From a virus, in IMG/VR virus record IMGVR_UViG_3300046001_002824, positions 1-22,940 of that record: a stretch of 22,940 bases of DNA, one strand, 5' to 3'. Made by a program: the position numbers and the translations under genes. Shown piece after piece: positions 4,527 through 15,971 of this stretch. Every line of letters begins with the position of its first letter. Position 1 is the stretch's first letter. The notes below the pieces were generated by a model. It was not told the origin of the DNA. It made no database searches and saw nothing but the letters and a program-made list of their open reading frames with translations.

Positions 4527-4878
4527 TGATTAATTTATTTAGTATTTCCTTTGTCGCGTTACGTGGCATTTTAATACCTTTATCTTTCAATAATGCTTTC
4601 ATCTCTTTAAAACTCATTATTTCAAACTGACCACTTATTACTTCAGTATCTAAAACTATCGTTAACGGTGCAGTTTCGTGAAATCTTATAAAGTTATTAA
4701 TTATGTTAATTGCATTAGCCCAACAACCTGAACAATTTAAAGATAACGTCTTTTTTGTTATTGCTTGGTATATTGTTTGGATATGTATTTTCTCGTCAAA
4801 GGTCGATGGCGTGAATTTAGCTATTATTTTGTTTCTTAATATATCTAAAGATATACGTCCTTGAATGTTTAACTCCAT
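4519..4878 (-). CDS. Small protein with C-terminal HeH/SAP-like domain
   Basis: A 119-residue protein when the ATG at 4878 is used; longer in-frame versions run through the upstream membrane-protein gene and are unlikely. The C-terminal 30 residues (SFKEMKALLKDKGIK then ATKEILNKL, 89-117) match the helix-extended-loop-helix/SAP-like fold that often binds DNA in phage proteins. The N-terminal part contains CSGC at 49-52, a possible metal or disulphide pair. It lies just before terS, so a role in packaging or DNA handling is plausible but unproven. The start overlaps the preceding gene by 10 bases and the stop overlaps terS by 8. Confidence 0.65.
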   Translation of the reverse strand: MELNIQGRISLDILRNKIIAKFTPSTFDEKIHIQTIYQAITKKTLSLNCSGCWANAINIINNFIRFHETAPLTIVLDTEVISGQFEIMSFKEMKALLKDKGIKMPRNATKEILNKLING

Positions 4879-7716: not shown

Positions 7717-8003
7717 ATCATTTTTATTAGTTCATCGTTAATTTTAATCTGTTCTGTCGTTTCTTTTTTAGCTATTAGCCAATGCAATTCTAAATCTGAA
7801 CATCTACTTCGTGCAACCCTCCATTCTTTCTCAAGTGTTTTAAACGTGTTTAAGACTATGTTTAAATCATTGATAGTACTTTCTACTTCTTTTATCTTTA
7901 AGTCGCTTAAACCTTTTCTTTTCATGCTTATTTTGCGAAATAGTAGTTTATTTATTGTCATTGATAAATAAATTTCCGATTGTGTTAATCTTAAGTCGTC
8001 CAT
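7713..8003 (-). CDS. Helical coiled-coil protein of unknown function (96 aa)
   Basis: A 96-residue, almost entirely helical protein: MDDLRLTQSEIYLSM, a basic KISMKRKGLSDLKI section, then long amphipathic helices (VESTINDLNIVLNTFKTLE, IAKKETTEQIKINDELIKM) likely to form a coiled coil. There is no catalytic motif. It sits between the replicative ATPase (TAATG overlap) and the 58-residue ORF (ATGA overlap). A helicase-accessory or loader role would suit the position but is speculation. Confidence 0.65.
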   Translation of the reverse strand: MDDLRLTQSEIYLSMTINKLLFRKISMKRKGLSDLKIKEVESTINDLNIVLNTFKTLEKEWRVARSRCSDLELHWLIAKKETTEQIKINDELIKMI

Positions 8004-8905
8004 TAAAATCCAAAATTAGGTTTTAAATACTCACTTTTTTCTATCAAAGTGTTTCTTTTTATTAAATCGTAACCCCCAATTCTAAAACCTAATCCATTAT
8101 TAAAATCAAAAGGTAAAGGAAAATCCATAAGTGTAGGTTGCCCCCCCGTTCTATTTCGTTTGTTTTTACGTACGTGAATATGCGTAACGTTGTTCATGGT
8201 TTCATGCTGTGTAAATCTGTGAACTATCCAAAAGTCATCAGCTCTATTTGCAAATGCTTGACCCCCTTCAGCGTCTGCCATCTTTGGCGGTTTTTGATGT
8301 CCTTCTAGTGGATGTCCTTTCGGAAATTGTCCCGTACTTCTTTGGCTTTCTGTTGATGGGTGCAAAGAAATATAAACCGTTTTCTTTGAGCTATTGCAAA
8401 ATTCCCGCATCTCGTTTAAAAAATCGTAGTTGTCAGAAAACCCGTAACCCCGTTTTAATCCTGTATAAGGGTCTATAAAAAAAGCATCGGATGAACTTTC
8501 TTTAAATATTTTTAAAAGGTCGCTAGGTGAATAAATTAATGAAGGGTCTATGAATGTAAACCAGTGTTCAATTTTTAAATTAAACTTTCTAATCTCATCA
8601 TGCGTAAGGTAGTAAAAGTTTTTGCCTGAATACATTTGAATTAAATTTATCATTGTTTCTCCTACTTCGTCCTCACCCATCCATAAAGTCCATTTAATAT
8701 CATGTTGACTAGAAATAGCTAGTGCATACCATTGAAACCAATACGACTTACCAACGTTAGCACCTCCTAGAATCATGTTCATTTGTCCACGTTTAAAACG
8801 AATATAGTTATCAATGTTATCACACCCCAACCCTAAACCGCTTTTAACTTTACCATCTTTTACAGCGAAAAGATAGTCTATTGAATTATTTTTATTTAGA
8901 ATCAT
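8003..8905 (-). CDS. RecA/DnaB-fold replicative ATPase
   Basis: A 300-residue protein when started at the ATG at 8905; an in-frame TTG at 8938 would overlap the previous gene by 47 bases. A short N-terminal part precedes the ATPase core, with Walker A GGANVGKS (47-54), Walker B AFFIDPY (about 141-147) and a sensor strand VYISLHPST with a polar residue, as in RecA, RepA and DnaB-type proteins. A DnaB-like arginine-rich segment (HIHVRKNKRNRTGG) lies near the C-terminus. It lacks a full DnaB N-terminal domain. Placed right after the initiator-like protein, it is probably the phage helicase or helicase loader acting at the fork. The ATPase call is strong, helicase activity is inferred. Confidence 0.82.
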   Translation of the reverse strand: MILNKNNSIDYLFAVKDGKVKSGLGLGCDNIDNYIRFKRGQMNMILGGANVGKSYWFQWYALAISSQHDIKWTLWMGEDEVGETMINLIQMYSGKNFYYLTHDEIRKFNLKIEHWFTFIDPSLIYSPSDLLKIFKESSSDAFFIDPYTGLKRGYGFSDNYDFLNEMREFCNSSKKTVYISLHPSTESQRSTGQFPKGHPLEGHQKPPKMADAEGGQAFANRADDFWIVHRFTQHETMNNVTHIHVRKNKRNRTGGQPTLMDFPLPFDFNNGLGFRIGGYDLIKRNTLIEKSEYLKPNFGF

Positions 8906-9608
8906 TTTGTAGGGCTTTTTGTTTAATAGCTTCTGCAATTTGTAGTTCTGCTATTCGTGAACTTTCAAGTTGAGCAGGTGAAAGGTTGTAAGGATTTGCA
9001 ATTACTTCTTCATTAATATATTTTAAAGTATTTAATAAAGTTGTTTTCCAAATTTTAATAGGTTCTTTTTTATCTTTACGAGTAATGCACCAGTCATTAT
9101 TTTCCCATGATTTATATTTAAATATTAATTCTTGCTTATTTGCTTTTGGTTTATTTTCTAAAGCGTATTCTATAAATTCATCAATCGTTGGTTTAATAGT
9201 TATTGGTTTATTAGTTATTGGTTTATCTATAGTACTATTGCTTTGCCCCATGCCTTTGATTTGCTTTACCCCATGCTTTACGATTGCTTTATCCAATGCT
9301 TTACCGTTTTTAGGTATAGCATTTATTAAGCTGATTATGTTTGCAGAATATTGATTTGTACTTTTTTGAACCATTTTTATAAATCCGAAATCAACTAATT
9401 CATTTAAGTATCTAGTATAAGTTTGATTCTTTTTTATTCCAATAGCATCCATTGCCATTTGAGTAGGGAATCCAAATTTATCTCTCCAGCCTAAACGATT
9501 ACAATGTTCAATAGCAAAGAAATAAATTGCAGTATGATTTGGAGAAACCTTTTCAGGATTTTCAAAACACCAGTCAAAATAATTTCGAGAAAGTTCGTAT
9601 CCGTTCAT
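8892..9608 (-). CDS. Replication-initiator-like winged-helix protein
   Basis: A 238-residue protein with the ATG at 9608; an in-frame TTG at 9632 is rejected because the ATG overlaps the previous stop as TAATG. The N-terminal domain (about 1-110) looks like a winged helix: HTAIYFFAIEHCNRLGW, then FPTQMAMDAIGI and a recognition-like helix NQTYTRYLNELVDFGFIKMV. A lysine/proline/threonine linker with repeated KPIT units joins a C-terminal domain (about 150-238) with KYKSWENNDWCITRKDKKE and IKIWKTTLLNTL, as in DnaD-like or phage O-like initiators. It likely binds the origin and recruits the ATPase encoded next, with a 14-base overlap. In-frame 15-base repeats encode the linker. Confidence 0.75.
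   Translation of the reverse strand: MNGYELSRNYFDWCFENPEKVSPNHTAIYFFAIEHCNRLGWRDKFGFPTQMAMDAIGIKKNQTYTRYLNELVDFGFIKMVQKSTNQYSANIISLINAIPKNGKALDKAIVKHGVKQIKGMGQSNSTIDKPITNKPITIKPTIDEFIEYALENKPKANKQELIFKYKSWENNDWCITRKDKKEPIKIWKTTLLNTLKYINEEVIANPYNLSPAQLESSRIAELQIAEAIKQKALQNDSK
9190..9225 (-). repeat. 15-base direct repeats in the initiator gene
   Basis: Plus-strand GGTTTAATAGTTATT (9190-9204) is repeated as GGTTTATTAGTTATT (9205-9219) and a third partial unit GGTTTA (9220-9225). They encode the KPIT repeats of the linker. Iterons inside an initiator gene serve as origins in lambdoid phages; here this is a possibility only, and simple protein-linker repetition explains them too. Confidence 0.5.
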
Positions 9609-9793
9609 TATTTCATATCTTTTTGAATGCAATGTAAAGCTCCTATCAGTTTAAATACATCTTTTTTAGTTAAACTTATATTAACAAACTCTTCTTCTTT
9701 CAAATCTTTTGAATGAATACTTAAGTAATTATCAATTAATTCAAACTCAATATTAGAGTCTATTCTTGTTTCATCTGTAAATTTGTAAATCAT
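9608..9793 (-). CDS. Small acidic protein of unknown function (61 aa)
   Basis: A 61-residue protein beginning MIYKFTDETRIDSNIEFELI, rich in acidic residues, with a C-terminal helix LTKKDVFKLIGALHCIQKDMK. No domain was recognised. It is the first gene after the terminator-like hairpin at 9818-9863, about 20 bases downstream, so its expression, and that of the replication genes behind it, could be set by read-through of that structure. Its TAA overlaps the initiator ATG. Confidence 0.6.
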   Translation of the reverse strand: MIYKFTDETRIDSNIEFELIDNYLSIHSKDLKEEEFVNISLTKKDVFKLIGALHCIQKDMK

Positions 9794-9811: not shown

Positions 9812-9896
9812 AATAAAAAAGTCATTTAAAAAAGGCGCTGGACTACCTTTGATAAATGACTTTATAGTAATGTTTTTAGAAGTGTCCAGCTTCGTA
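9812..9896 (-). ncRNA. Candidate kissing-loop small RNA or leader
   Basis: The minus strand can encode an RNA of about 80-85 nt. It starts with a small hairpin GAAG-CUGGACA-CUUC (9879-9893) placed immediately after a -7 box, has an A/U-rich linker, then a long hairpin: 11-bp stem (9853-9863 with 9818-9828), inner AAAGG/CCUUU stem (9846-9850 with 9831-9835) and a 10-nt apical loop UAGUCCAGCG. The loop contains GUCCAGC (9837-9843), exactly complementary to GCUGGAC (9884-9890) of the first hairpin. The two loops could therefore kiss or form a pseudoknot. A U-run ends the structure. It may be a free small RNA or an attenuator before the replication genes. No known family was recognised; the pairings are read directly, the function is unknown. 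Confidence 0.5.
9814..9863 (-). terminator. Intrinsic terminator or attenuator
   Basis: Perfect 11-bp minus-strand stem AAAGTCATTTA/TAAATGACTTT (9853-9863 and 9818-9828) followed by a run of T from 9820 down to 9815. It lies after the methyltransferase gene and before the 61-residue gene. It would end the helicase/methyltransferase transcript and/or the short RNA above. The stem is AU-rich, so termination may be partial. Confidence 0.65.
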
Positions 9897-9898
9897 TA

Positions 9899-9929
9899 CA
9901 AATATAGTAATTATTATCTAATTAAAAAA
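9899..9929 (-). promoter_or_regulatory. Candidate promoter of the 9.8-kb RNA
   Basis: TATATTTG (9899-9906, minus strand) is a full match to the -7 consensus. The expected -33 site, 19 bases upstream at 9926-9929, reads TTTT rather than TTTG, a weak match overlapping the end of the methyltransferase gene. The predicted start falls at the first base pairs of the 5' hairpin, which supports a discrete RNA. Confidence 0.45.
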
Positions 9930-10941
9930 GTGTTTCTTGTTTAATAGTTGCTTTAAATCTTTTTTCAGCTTCTTTTAAATTTAAGATAGCTTGTTTGTAA
10001 TAACTATCTTTTAATTCAATTCCTATTGCTTTACGACCCATTGATACAGGACTAAACACTTCGCTTCCAACTCCCATAAACGGAGTTAAAACAACTTCAT
10101 TAGGATTAGAATATAGTTCTACAATTCTATCAATTACATCTAATTGTAGTGGGTGTACGTGTTTTTCATCATCCTCTTCTTTTGAATCTCTAAACGGTAA
10201 AACATTATCAATTCTAATATCGTCCCAAACAGAGCTAGCGTAACGTTGCCATATATAATGGTTTAATTTAGTTATTTTATCGTCTTCATTTATATTGTTT
10301 AAATGTTCCCAAAGTTGCTCAGTATTAAAATCTGAATTATTAGCGTTGTTGTATGCTCTTAAAATATTTGGTAGTATTGGAGTTTCACCTGCATAATTAT
10401 TCATTCCATACGGATGTGTTACGGGTACTTTGTTTTCGCCTTTCTTTGTGAATACTAAAACATAGTCAGGCATTGCTGTAAAACATTTTGTACTATCTTC
10501 AACAATGAACTTGTGCATTAAAGATTGTACCATTGTTCTCATTCTAACCTTTAAAGGCTCTTTCCATATTGTTATACGGTTACGATATTCAAAACCATAT
10601 TTAGTATGTAGTCTTATAATCTCATTAGGGAAGTCCCAAAGTCTACAAGTATTATCAAATACATCTGTACAATGAACAGCGGTAATCCTACCAGCTTTTG
10701 TCACTCTTGAAATCTCTTTAATTAAAAATTCATATTGTTCTAAAAACTGTTCTTTACTTTCACAATTGCTAAAGTCATTTTCAGAACTTGAATAGTTATA
10801 TAGTCCAGCAAATGGAGGGCTATATACTGATAAATCAATACTTTCATCTGATAATGTAGGCATTACTAGCATACAGTCGCTATTATAAATAGCATAGTTT
10901 TCTGTTACTACTTGGTCTTTTACTTTGTTTTCTGTTTTCAT
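9922..10941 (-). CDS. DNA amino-methyltransferase (N6A or N4C)
   Basis: A 339-residue DNA methyltransferase of the amino type. The catalytic motif IV is SPPF (41-44) near the N-terminus and the SAM-binding motif I TPFMGVGSE (286-294) lies near the C-terminus, followed by IGIELKDSYY; this order is the beta-class arrangement. It would methylate adenine N6 or cytosine N4 in a short target site. SPPF fits either. The middle 150 residues probably contain the target-recognition region. No restriction endonuclease is seen nearby; the partner three bases upstream is an SNF2-like helicase. Likely roles are protection from host restriction or marking of phage DNA. The ATG follows an AAATTATGA leader similar to those of other genes here. 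Confidence 0.9.
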   Translation of the reverse strand: MKTENKVKDQVVTENYAIYNSDCMLVMPTLSDESIDLSVYSPPFAGLYNYSSSENDFSNCESKEQFLEQYEFLIKEISRVTKAGRITAVHCTDVFDNTCRLWDFPNEIIRLHTKYGFEYRNRITIWKEPLKVRMRTMVQSLMHKFIVEDSTKCFTAMPDYVLVFTKKGENKVPVTHPYGMNNYAGETPILPNILRAYNNANNSDFNTEQLWEHLNNINEDDKITKLNHYIWQRYASSVWDDIRIDNVLPFRDSKEEDDEKHVHPLQLDVIDRIVELYSNPNEVVLTPFMGVGSEVFSPVSMGRKAIGIELKDSYYKQAILNLKEAEKRFKATIKQETLF

Positions 10942-12552: not shown

Positions 12553-12579
12553 AATTTTTGTGTTTTTAAATTGTTTCTG

Positions 12580-12610
12580 CAAATCTAACTATAATATTGA
12601 CTATAACAAG
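12580..12610 (-). promoter_or_regulatory. Promoter of the helicase/methyltransferase operon
   Basis: Minus strand CTTG (12607-12610), 19-base spacer, TAGATTTG (12580-12587): one mismatch from the Bacteroidetes TTTG-N19-TAnnTTTG consensus. It begins about 28 bases before the ATG at 12552. The whole stretch up to 12654 aligns without gaps to the promoter of the ERF operon at 15890-15964. Confidence 0.72.
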
Positions 12611-12629
12611 CTTTATTATATTTTTACTC

Positions 12630-12654
12630 TTATTTATATTAATTCTAAATAGTG
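12630..12654 (-). repeat. 25-base upstream element, copy 1
   Basis: These 25 bases, reading CACTATTTAGAA at the start of the minus strand, are identical to 15940-15964. Both copies lie at the same distance upstream of a -33 box. Identity over AT-rich noncoding DNA within one phage suggests a binding site for a regulator or RNA polymerase factor. Confidence 0.75.
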
Positions 12655-12702
12655 TTTTGCACAAATATACGGTAAATGATTGTGTTTGTAGTGTATTTGT
12701 GT

Positions 12703-15850: not shown

Positions 15851-15889
15851 AATTTGTGTTTTTATTATTGTTACGTCTTATTGACATAG

Positions 15890-15920
15890 CAAAGATAAGT
15901 ATAATATTGACTATTACAAA
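15890..15920 (-). promoter_or_regulatory. Promoter of the ERF operon
   Basis: TTTG (15917-15920), 19-base spacer, TATCTTTG (15890-15897) on the minus strand: an exact match to TTTG-N19-TAnnTTTG. About 40 bases precede the first ATG at 15850. It is almost the same as the promoter at 12580-12610, including most of the spacer. Confidence 0.8.
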
Positions 15921-15939
15921 CTTTATTATAAAATAATTG

Positions 15940-15964
15940 TTATTTATATTAATTCTAAATAGTG
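15940..15964 (-). repeat. 25-base upstream element, copy 2
   Basis: Identical over 25 bases to 12630-12654 and at the same distance (19 bases) from the -33 box. After a 9-base divergent block, the identity resumes over most of the promoter. The shared stretch marks a common control site for the ERF and helicase operons. Confidence 0.75.
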
Positions 15965-15971
15965 TATTAAC

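Follow-up and report, generated by a model that had tools for sequence, protein, structure and literature searches.

The replication, methyltransferase and terminase genes of the 22.9-kb viral record analysed here (the window) lie on the minus strand, and the interval between the end of the methyltransferase gene (9922) and the start of a gene for a 61-aa protein (9793) raises the question of whether a structured RNA is encoded there and what it would do. A first-pass annotation had proposed a phage RNA with two complementary hairpin loops, acting either as a free small RNA or as an attenuator of the replication genes that follow. We examined this locus and its relatives in other phages.

A predicted kissing-loop unit ahead of the replication genes

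We found a unit spanning 9906-9815 on the minus strand, composed of a promoter box, hairpin 1, an A-rich linker and an intrinsic terminator (Table 1). The -7 box seen in the first-pass annotation, TATATTTG, fits the flavobacterial box, and the fold recovered both the short GAAG/CUUC hairpin with CUGGAC in its loop and the two-part terminator hairpin with its U-run that had been described. The minimum free energy, with the kissing pairs excluded, was -19.5 kcal/mol (z = -3.1), and 1 of 200 shuffled sequences folded equally well. The outer terminator stem was formed by 9862-9853 and 9828-9819, and the inner stem, AAAGGU/GCCUUU, by 9850-9845 and 9836-9831, with AGUCCAGC as the 8-nt apical loop; on the opposite strand, TACCTTTG is found at 9844-9851. 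As a stable hairpin directly followed by a U-run, the element meets the criterion for an intrinsic terminator, and the terminator hairpins of the family average -16.9 kcal/mol. A 7-base match placed in both loops had also been claimed. The complementarity of GCUGGAC and GUCCAGC holds, but only 6 bp (CUGGAC at 9889-9884 with GUCCAG at 9843-9838) lie strictly inside both loops, while the seventh pair, 9890-9837, would use the base pair that closes hairpin 1.

The sigma-A -7 box of F. psychrophilum, TAnnTTTG, sits at -12 to -5 (PMC9723704). This spacing places +1 near 9894, one base ahead of hairpin 1, in agreement with the earlier prediction that transcription starts at the first hairpin. The box alone is weak evidence, as TAnnTTTG occurs 45 times in the window versus 38.6 expected. 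Members of the family also carry a T-rich stretch with a G 20-23 nt upstream of the box, as for the -33 TTTG element, and their box-to-hairpin spacer has a median of 5-6 nt. The putative promoter thus meets the criteria for Bacteroidetes sigma-A promoters (box, start 5 nt past the box and -33 TTG-like element), its activity being inferred.

Table 1. Predicted features of the element and the genes that follow it in the window
Feature	Position	Strand	Basis or remark
-7 promoter box TATATTTG	9899..9906	-	fits Bacteroidetes sigma-A box TAnnTTTG
Predicted transcription start	9894..9894	-	box at -12 to -5; inferred from PMC9723704
Hairpin 1 (HP1), 4-bp stem GAAG/CUUC, 7-nt loop CUGGACA	9879..9893	-	fold; stem covariation in relatives
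Kissing strand K1, (G)CUGGAC	9884..9890	-	exact complement of K2; CUCGAC in L190/L192, with K2 compensating
A-rich linker UAAAAACAUUACUAUA, 16 nt	9863..9878	-	AAAAACATTATAA-like motif recurs in many relatives with differing loops
Intrinsic-terminator hairpin, outer stem 10-11 bp, inner stem 6 bp, 8-nt apical loop	9819..9862	-	fold; covariation
Kissing strand K2, GUCCAGC, in apical loop	9837..9843	-	sequence
Terminator U-run	9815..9820	-	sequence
First downstream gene, 61 aa	9608..9793	-	start codon 25 nt past terminator stem
Replication-initiator-like gene	8892..9608	-	tblastn
DnaB/primase-helicase-like gene, same operon	8003..8938	-	PHROGs

The loop complementarity recurs across Bacteroidetes phages

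GCTGGAC is present at three sites in the window versus 0.63 expected, and two of the three belong to the element, the other lying at 10803-10809. It had been cautioned that a 7-base match by chance is not negligible, and on the window sequence alone the match is indeed only suggestive, so that the relatives decide. An exact search found two further viral contigs, one with the same locus (L002) and one with a nearly identical element in another gene context (L001). The exact loop pattern gave two unrelated matches in genome contigs and, in viral contigs, mostly chance matches in coding sequence, indicating that the loop sequence is a poor handle for finding relatives; a BLAST search of phages and plasmids with the short window element likewise found no homologue. 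A scanner for a promoter, hairpin 1 and a terminator with complementary loops was then applied to Bacteroidetes-phage contigs and isolate genomes. The same architecture was identified in many Bacteroidetes phage contigs, with 45 distinct element sequences and more than 40 loop pairs, among them GGTCAG/CTGACC, GTGGAG/CTCCAC, GTCGTCG/CGACGAC, GTAAGGC/GCCTTAC, GCGTGAGA/TCTCACGC and ACTGGAACT/AGTTCCAGT.

Several controls were employed. Matches of at least 7 bases numbered 28 for the reverse complement, versus 2 for reversed and 8 for merely complemented loops. When units were selected blind to their loops (27 clusters), 15 had a match of at least 6, versus a mean of 0.90 and a maximum of 4 in 2000 permutations. 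In a loop-blind set of 81 units, 35, 29 and 15 had at least 6, 7 and 8 complementary bases, respectively, versus means of 3.0, 0.85 and 0.24 and maxima of 10, 4 and 3 in 1000 permutations. Many unmatched units of this set, which were not individually checked, resemble ordinary gene-end terminators or coding sequence, and L174, L179 and L284, which match in other scans, escaped detection here because the scan settled on a different hairpin or terminator register. Units chosen only by promoter and linker motif, many of them chance pattern matches in coding sequence, still gave 13 of 40 with a match of at least 7 (permuted mean 2.7, maximum 9). On both strands of whole contigs we detected 29 elements in 1.43 Mb and none in locally shuffled sequence, and no element of the 29 lay within an ORF of at least 40 aa. 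Across relatives, the match is therefore far beyond chance. A single 7-base match is not rare, which could suggest an ordinary terminator that happens to adjoin a promoter, but this explanation is already refuted by the permutation tests together with the compensatory changes described below, and we give it practically no weight.

Compensatory changes in the stems and between the loops

The window and L001 carry GCUGGAC..GUCCAGC, versus GCUCGAC..GUCGAGC in L190 and L192, in an otherwise near-identical element; the inner stem of L190 and L192 has one more base pair, inserted on both sides (AAAGGU/GCCUUU to AAAGGAU/GUCCUUU). At the same locus, cultured Baltic Flavobacterium phages carry GTGAGACG/CGTCTCAC (lillamy and hattifnatt), GTGGAACG/CGTTCCAC (mumin and snusmum) and GTGAGAAG/CTTCTCAC (morran). 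A MAFFT alignment of 24 diverse elements came out misaligned, and covariation was therefore counted within homogeneous subfamilies. In subfamily A, whose alignment consists of copies mostly ahead of HNH genes, every cell was standard-paired and 8 of 22 pairs changed on both sides, with covariation in all four helices (hairpin 1, kissing, outer stem and inner stem), while a slide control gave no covarying pairs at -3 to +2 and one at +3. Subfamily B showed covariation in 8 of 27 pairs and was 96% paired, one row being misaligned by one base in the kissing strand. The first-pass annotation had suggested a covariation check, which the stems and the loop-loop pair both passed; the compensatory changes in them bear out its proposal of a structured phage RNA whose hairpin loops are complementary.

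In 34 of the 45 elements, the pairing between the loops ends where the stem of hairpin 1 begins. The kiss is therefore compatible with both hairpins, a pattern that kissing loops would produce and strand swapping would not. K1 is 60% G+C versus 33% elsewhere, and the kissing duplex averages -10.1 kcal/mol. The predicted RNA meets the criterion for a kissing-loop RNA, namely loops that pair, compensatory changes and retention of both stems. This structure rests on comparison of sequences, which shows hairpin 1, the terminator hairpin with its inner stem, and a kissing helix compatible with them; it also shows the position ahead of replication genes. One subclass has a longer hairpin-1 loop of about 14-16 nt, in which the kissing strand is followed by a recurring ATTATAG-like stretch and then by stem closure (L111:5026, L102:2505, L109:2512, L133:5024, L189:3684, L152:5817 and L193:9357).

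Neither the window nor 11 related loci (135 kb) matched Rfam 15 at the gathering threshold, in line with the earlier remark that no known family fits, and at E values up to 10 the window gave only unrelated weak matches. Searches of the open-access literature turned up no account of an element of this kind, and two phage-isolation papers on the isolates described below mention no promoters, terminators or non-coding RNA. The RNA family is real and, apparently, undescribed.

Gene context of the element

The element lies directly ahead of the replication operon in the isolates Olleya phage Harreka_1, Polaribacter phage Danklef_1 and Flavobacterium phages elemoA and 11b, as well as in Lillamyvirus and Hattifnattvirus. 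In Cellulophaga phages phi13:2 and phi19:3, read by eye, the gap ahead of a replication gene is laid out in the same way; the loops match over 9 bases (CTCTCACAA/TTGTGAGAG), and hairpin 1 is short, at only about 3 bp. Every element has the order promoter, terminator, start codon, and most have replication genes downstream; the box usually lies 0-40 nt past the upstream stop codon, and the following start codon mostly 10-50 nt past the terminator. In the window, the product of the replication-initiator-like gene matched a Marinitoga phage DnaD-like replication initiation protein (tblastn, E 5e-6) and also a Polaribacter Danklef protein, while no Pfam match was found for it. Genes after family elements include the window-type initiator, DUF6291, Phg_2220_C and BT4734-like/PriCT primase genes, with DUF3987 primase-like and SNF2/DEAD helicase genes as further downstream genes, and the replication genes are often preceded by a small-protein or HNH endonuclease gene.

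A small protein of 61-71 aa is often encoded first after the element, ahead of the replication initiator (window 9608-9793; L193:14488-14700; L215:9286-9486; L210:7446-7661; L223:8973-9185; L227:11600-11806). A beta4-alpha fold was predicted for it from an alignment (pLDDT 80), and a search with this fold returned nothing significant, the best PDB matches including Pur-alpha domains (E 1.3). Some copies of the element precede HNH endonuclease or unknown genes rather than replication genes directly. One subfamily is found repeatedly ahead of genes of which those tested (L193 and L251) encode HNH endonucleases, with copies at L251:2798-2884 and 4662-4746 (1.9 kb apart in one contig), L193:13299-13387, L245, L278:10572, L284 and L305; this subfamily may travel with homing endonucleases. 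Phage hattifnatt9-1 (L193) holds three copies, at 9358, 13299 and 14334, ahead of a helicase gene, an HNH endonuclease gene and a DUF6291 operon, with three loop pairs, and L278 likewise holds three copies with loops unrelated to one another.

Among 80 loci with the same upstream methyltransferase gene, 67 carried neither a promoter nor a terminator at this junction, indicating that the element is a module that comes and goes. A case that keeps the flanking gene and the terminator and loses the loop match would have refuted the proposed RNA; it was sought at these loci, and all convincing units keep the match (L127, L128, L131, L133, L135, L136, L142 and L144, as well as L111 and L130 by eye, since their 16-nt loops exceeded the scanner limit). 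L113 and L114 were low-scoring, and L120 had no loop match.

Some further observations were made in these genomes. The annotated hattifnatt helicase (L193:9441, MN812207.1 gp034) starts inside the terminator, its likely start being about 30 nt later, and morran gp042 (L320:141-284, MN812219.1, 47 aa), which overlies the element, is unlikely to be a real gene. The window holds an 80-nt direct repeat (12579-12658 and 15889-15968, 85% identical), which contains an AT-rich promoter-like region with CACTATTTAGAATTAATATAAATAA ... TAnnTTTG on the minus strand; the CACTATTTAGAATTAATATAAATAA stretch is also found just upstream of the promoter of the L001 kissing element. The methyltransferase region of OP947161.1 (L195), named Rhodobacteraceae phage LS06-2018-MD05, shares 81% DNA identity with that of the window; this record matches Flavobacterium phages, and its host name may be wrong.

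A putative attenuator of the replication operon

Since promoter, terminator and gene lie on one strand, this promoter can express the gene only by read-through, and given their order, transcripts from upstream must also pass the terminator. The predicted element meets the criterion for an attenuator, since a terminator separates the promoter from the coding sequence and all three have the sense orientation; a regulated shift between termination and read-through is inferred. We propose, with somewhat more confidence than doubt, that the element is a promoter-proximal kissing-loop attenuator which governs read-through into the replication operon of the phage. Transcription from a host-type promoter would yield a short leader opening with hairpin 1. 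Once the apical loop leaves the polymerase, hairpin 1 would kiss it through 6-8 bp, both hairpins remaining intact, and this kissing, coinciding with the polymerase at the U-run, would tune stopping versus read-through into genes 10-50 nt downstream. In most elements, the terminator stem ends about 13-24 nt past the apical-loop partner, which should therefore exit the polymerase as the U-run is reached, a timing that is itself inferred. No alternative anti-terminator fold was found, so the route from kissing to changed termination is a guess. The kissing-loop unit probably controls the timing of replication-gene expression, the regulatory step being inferred; in the absence of expression data, so are use of the box, partial termination, and the effect of kissing on read-through and its direction. 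The trigger might be a factor of phage or host origin, or leader RNA that has accumulated and kisses in trans.

The element might instead produce a free small RNA some 80 nt long, ending at an efficient terminator and made compact and stable by the kissing fold, with RNAs or proteins of the phage or the host as its targets in trans; this remains a serious rival, although we consider it rather unlikely. The element is a complete transcription unit (promoter, structured RNA and terminator) without an ORF of its own, and a 5′ hairpin clamped to a 3′ terminator suits a stable RNA. However, every copy lies directly ahead of a gene start, and one phage can carry three copies with unrelated loops, as expected of leaders and not of one small-RNA gene; moreover, the paired loops are unavailable for targets, and the window offers only one other GCTGGAC. 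Gene context thus favours the attenuator, with the caveat that gaps are short throughout these genomes, so that a start codon close by says little about action in cis.

More doubtful is a docking site, in which the kissing complex would be recognised by shape by a phage or host antitermination factor so that the polymerase passes the terminator. Rom likewise recognises the RNA I/RNA II kissing complex by shape. As shape recognition predicts, the kissing geometry is conserved although the loop letters are free to vary; the A-rich linker motif recurs, and a small protein with a predicted fold often follows first downstream. However, no factor has been identified, and the small protein lacks a significant structural match and is missing after many copies. 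Taken together, the layout and the inferred timing favour the cis attenuator over both of these explanations.

The loops might also act between molecules, loop 1 of one leader pairing with loop 2 of another. Terminated leaders would then accumulate with genome copies, kiss nascent leaders in trans and feed back on the replication genes as a self-antisense copy-number control; we regard this as slightly less probable still than the docking site. If it were true, the private loop pair of each copy would give specificity, like plasmid incompatibility groups. Finally, the position adjoining replication genes could point to a DNA element, either an origin or protein-binding inverted repeats. This is quite improbable in view of the stems within stems, the inserted base pair, the U-run, the promoter at fixed spacing on one strand and the copies ahead of HNH genes.

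Relation to known systems and implications

In the plasmid rep-leader attenuators of pT181 repC and pIP501/pAM-beta-1 repR, pairing is between the leader and a distinct antisense RNA. The phage element resembles them in that it forms the 5′ leader of a replication gene, places an intrinsic terminator immediately ahead of the start codon and involves loop-loop pairing, but it has both loops in one transcript, and no gene for an antisense RNA was seen. Kissing of ColE1 RNA I/RNA II and of R1 CopA/CopT is intermolecular, sense against antisense. Loop-loop pairing of 6-8 bp, a link to replication control and loop sequences that diversify while complementarity is kept are shared with the phage element, whose kiss is, in contrast, intramolecular and whose carriers are phages. 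The lambda oop RNA, antisense to cII on the opposite strand, is likewise a short terminated phage RNA (about 77 nt) adjoining a replication initiator gene, whereas the present element runs in the direction of the replication genes and has an internal kissing pair. The pistol ribozyme likewise has an A-rich linker and a pseudoknot between the loop of its 5′ hairpin and a strand further downstream, but the partner strand of the phage element lies in the terminator apical loop. A pistol ribozyme was considered and dropped, as there was no Rfam ribozyme match at E values up to 10. Kissing-loop riboswitches (purine class) and terminator-embedded aptamers (HMP-PP, PMC6478431) also combine a leader RNA, a tertiary loop contact and a terminator within the fold; unlike them, the phage element has no highly conserved ligand-binding core, and only the A-rich linker recurs. 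Antisense attenuators are the subject of PMC3753616 and PMC4878617.

The element is carried by phages of several viral families and genera infecting Flavobacteriia, in which gene control is largely unstudied. Because both partners of a loop pair can be exchanged together, the mechanism is directly testable, and the pairs may yield orthogonal RNA parts for Bacteroidetes genetics. Given its position ahead of replication genes, the element may be a general switch for the onset of phage DNA copying.
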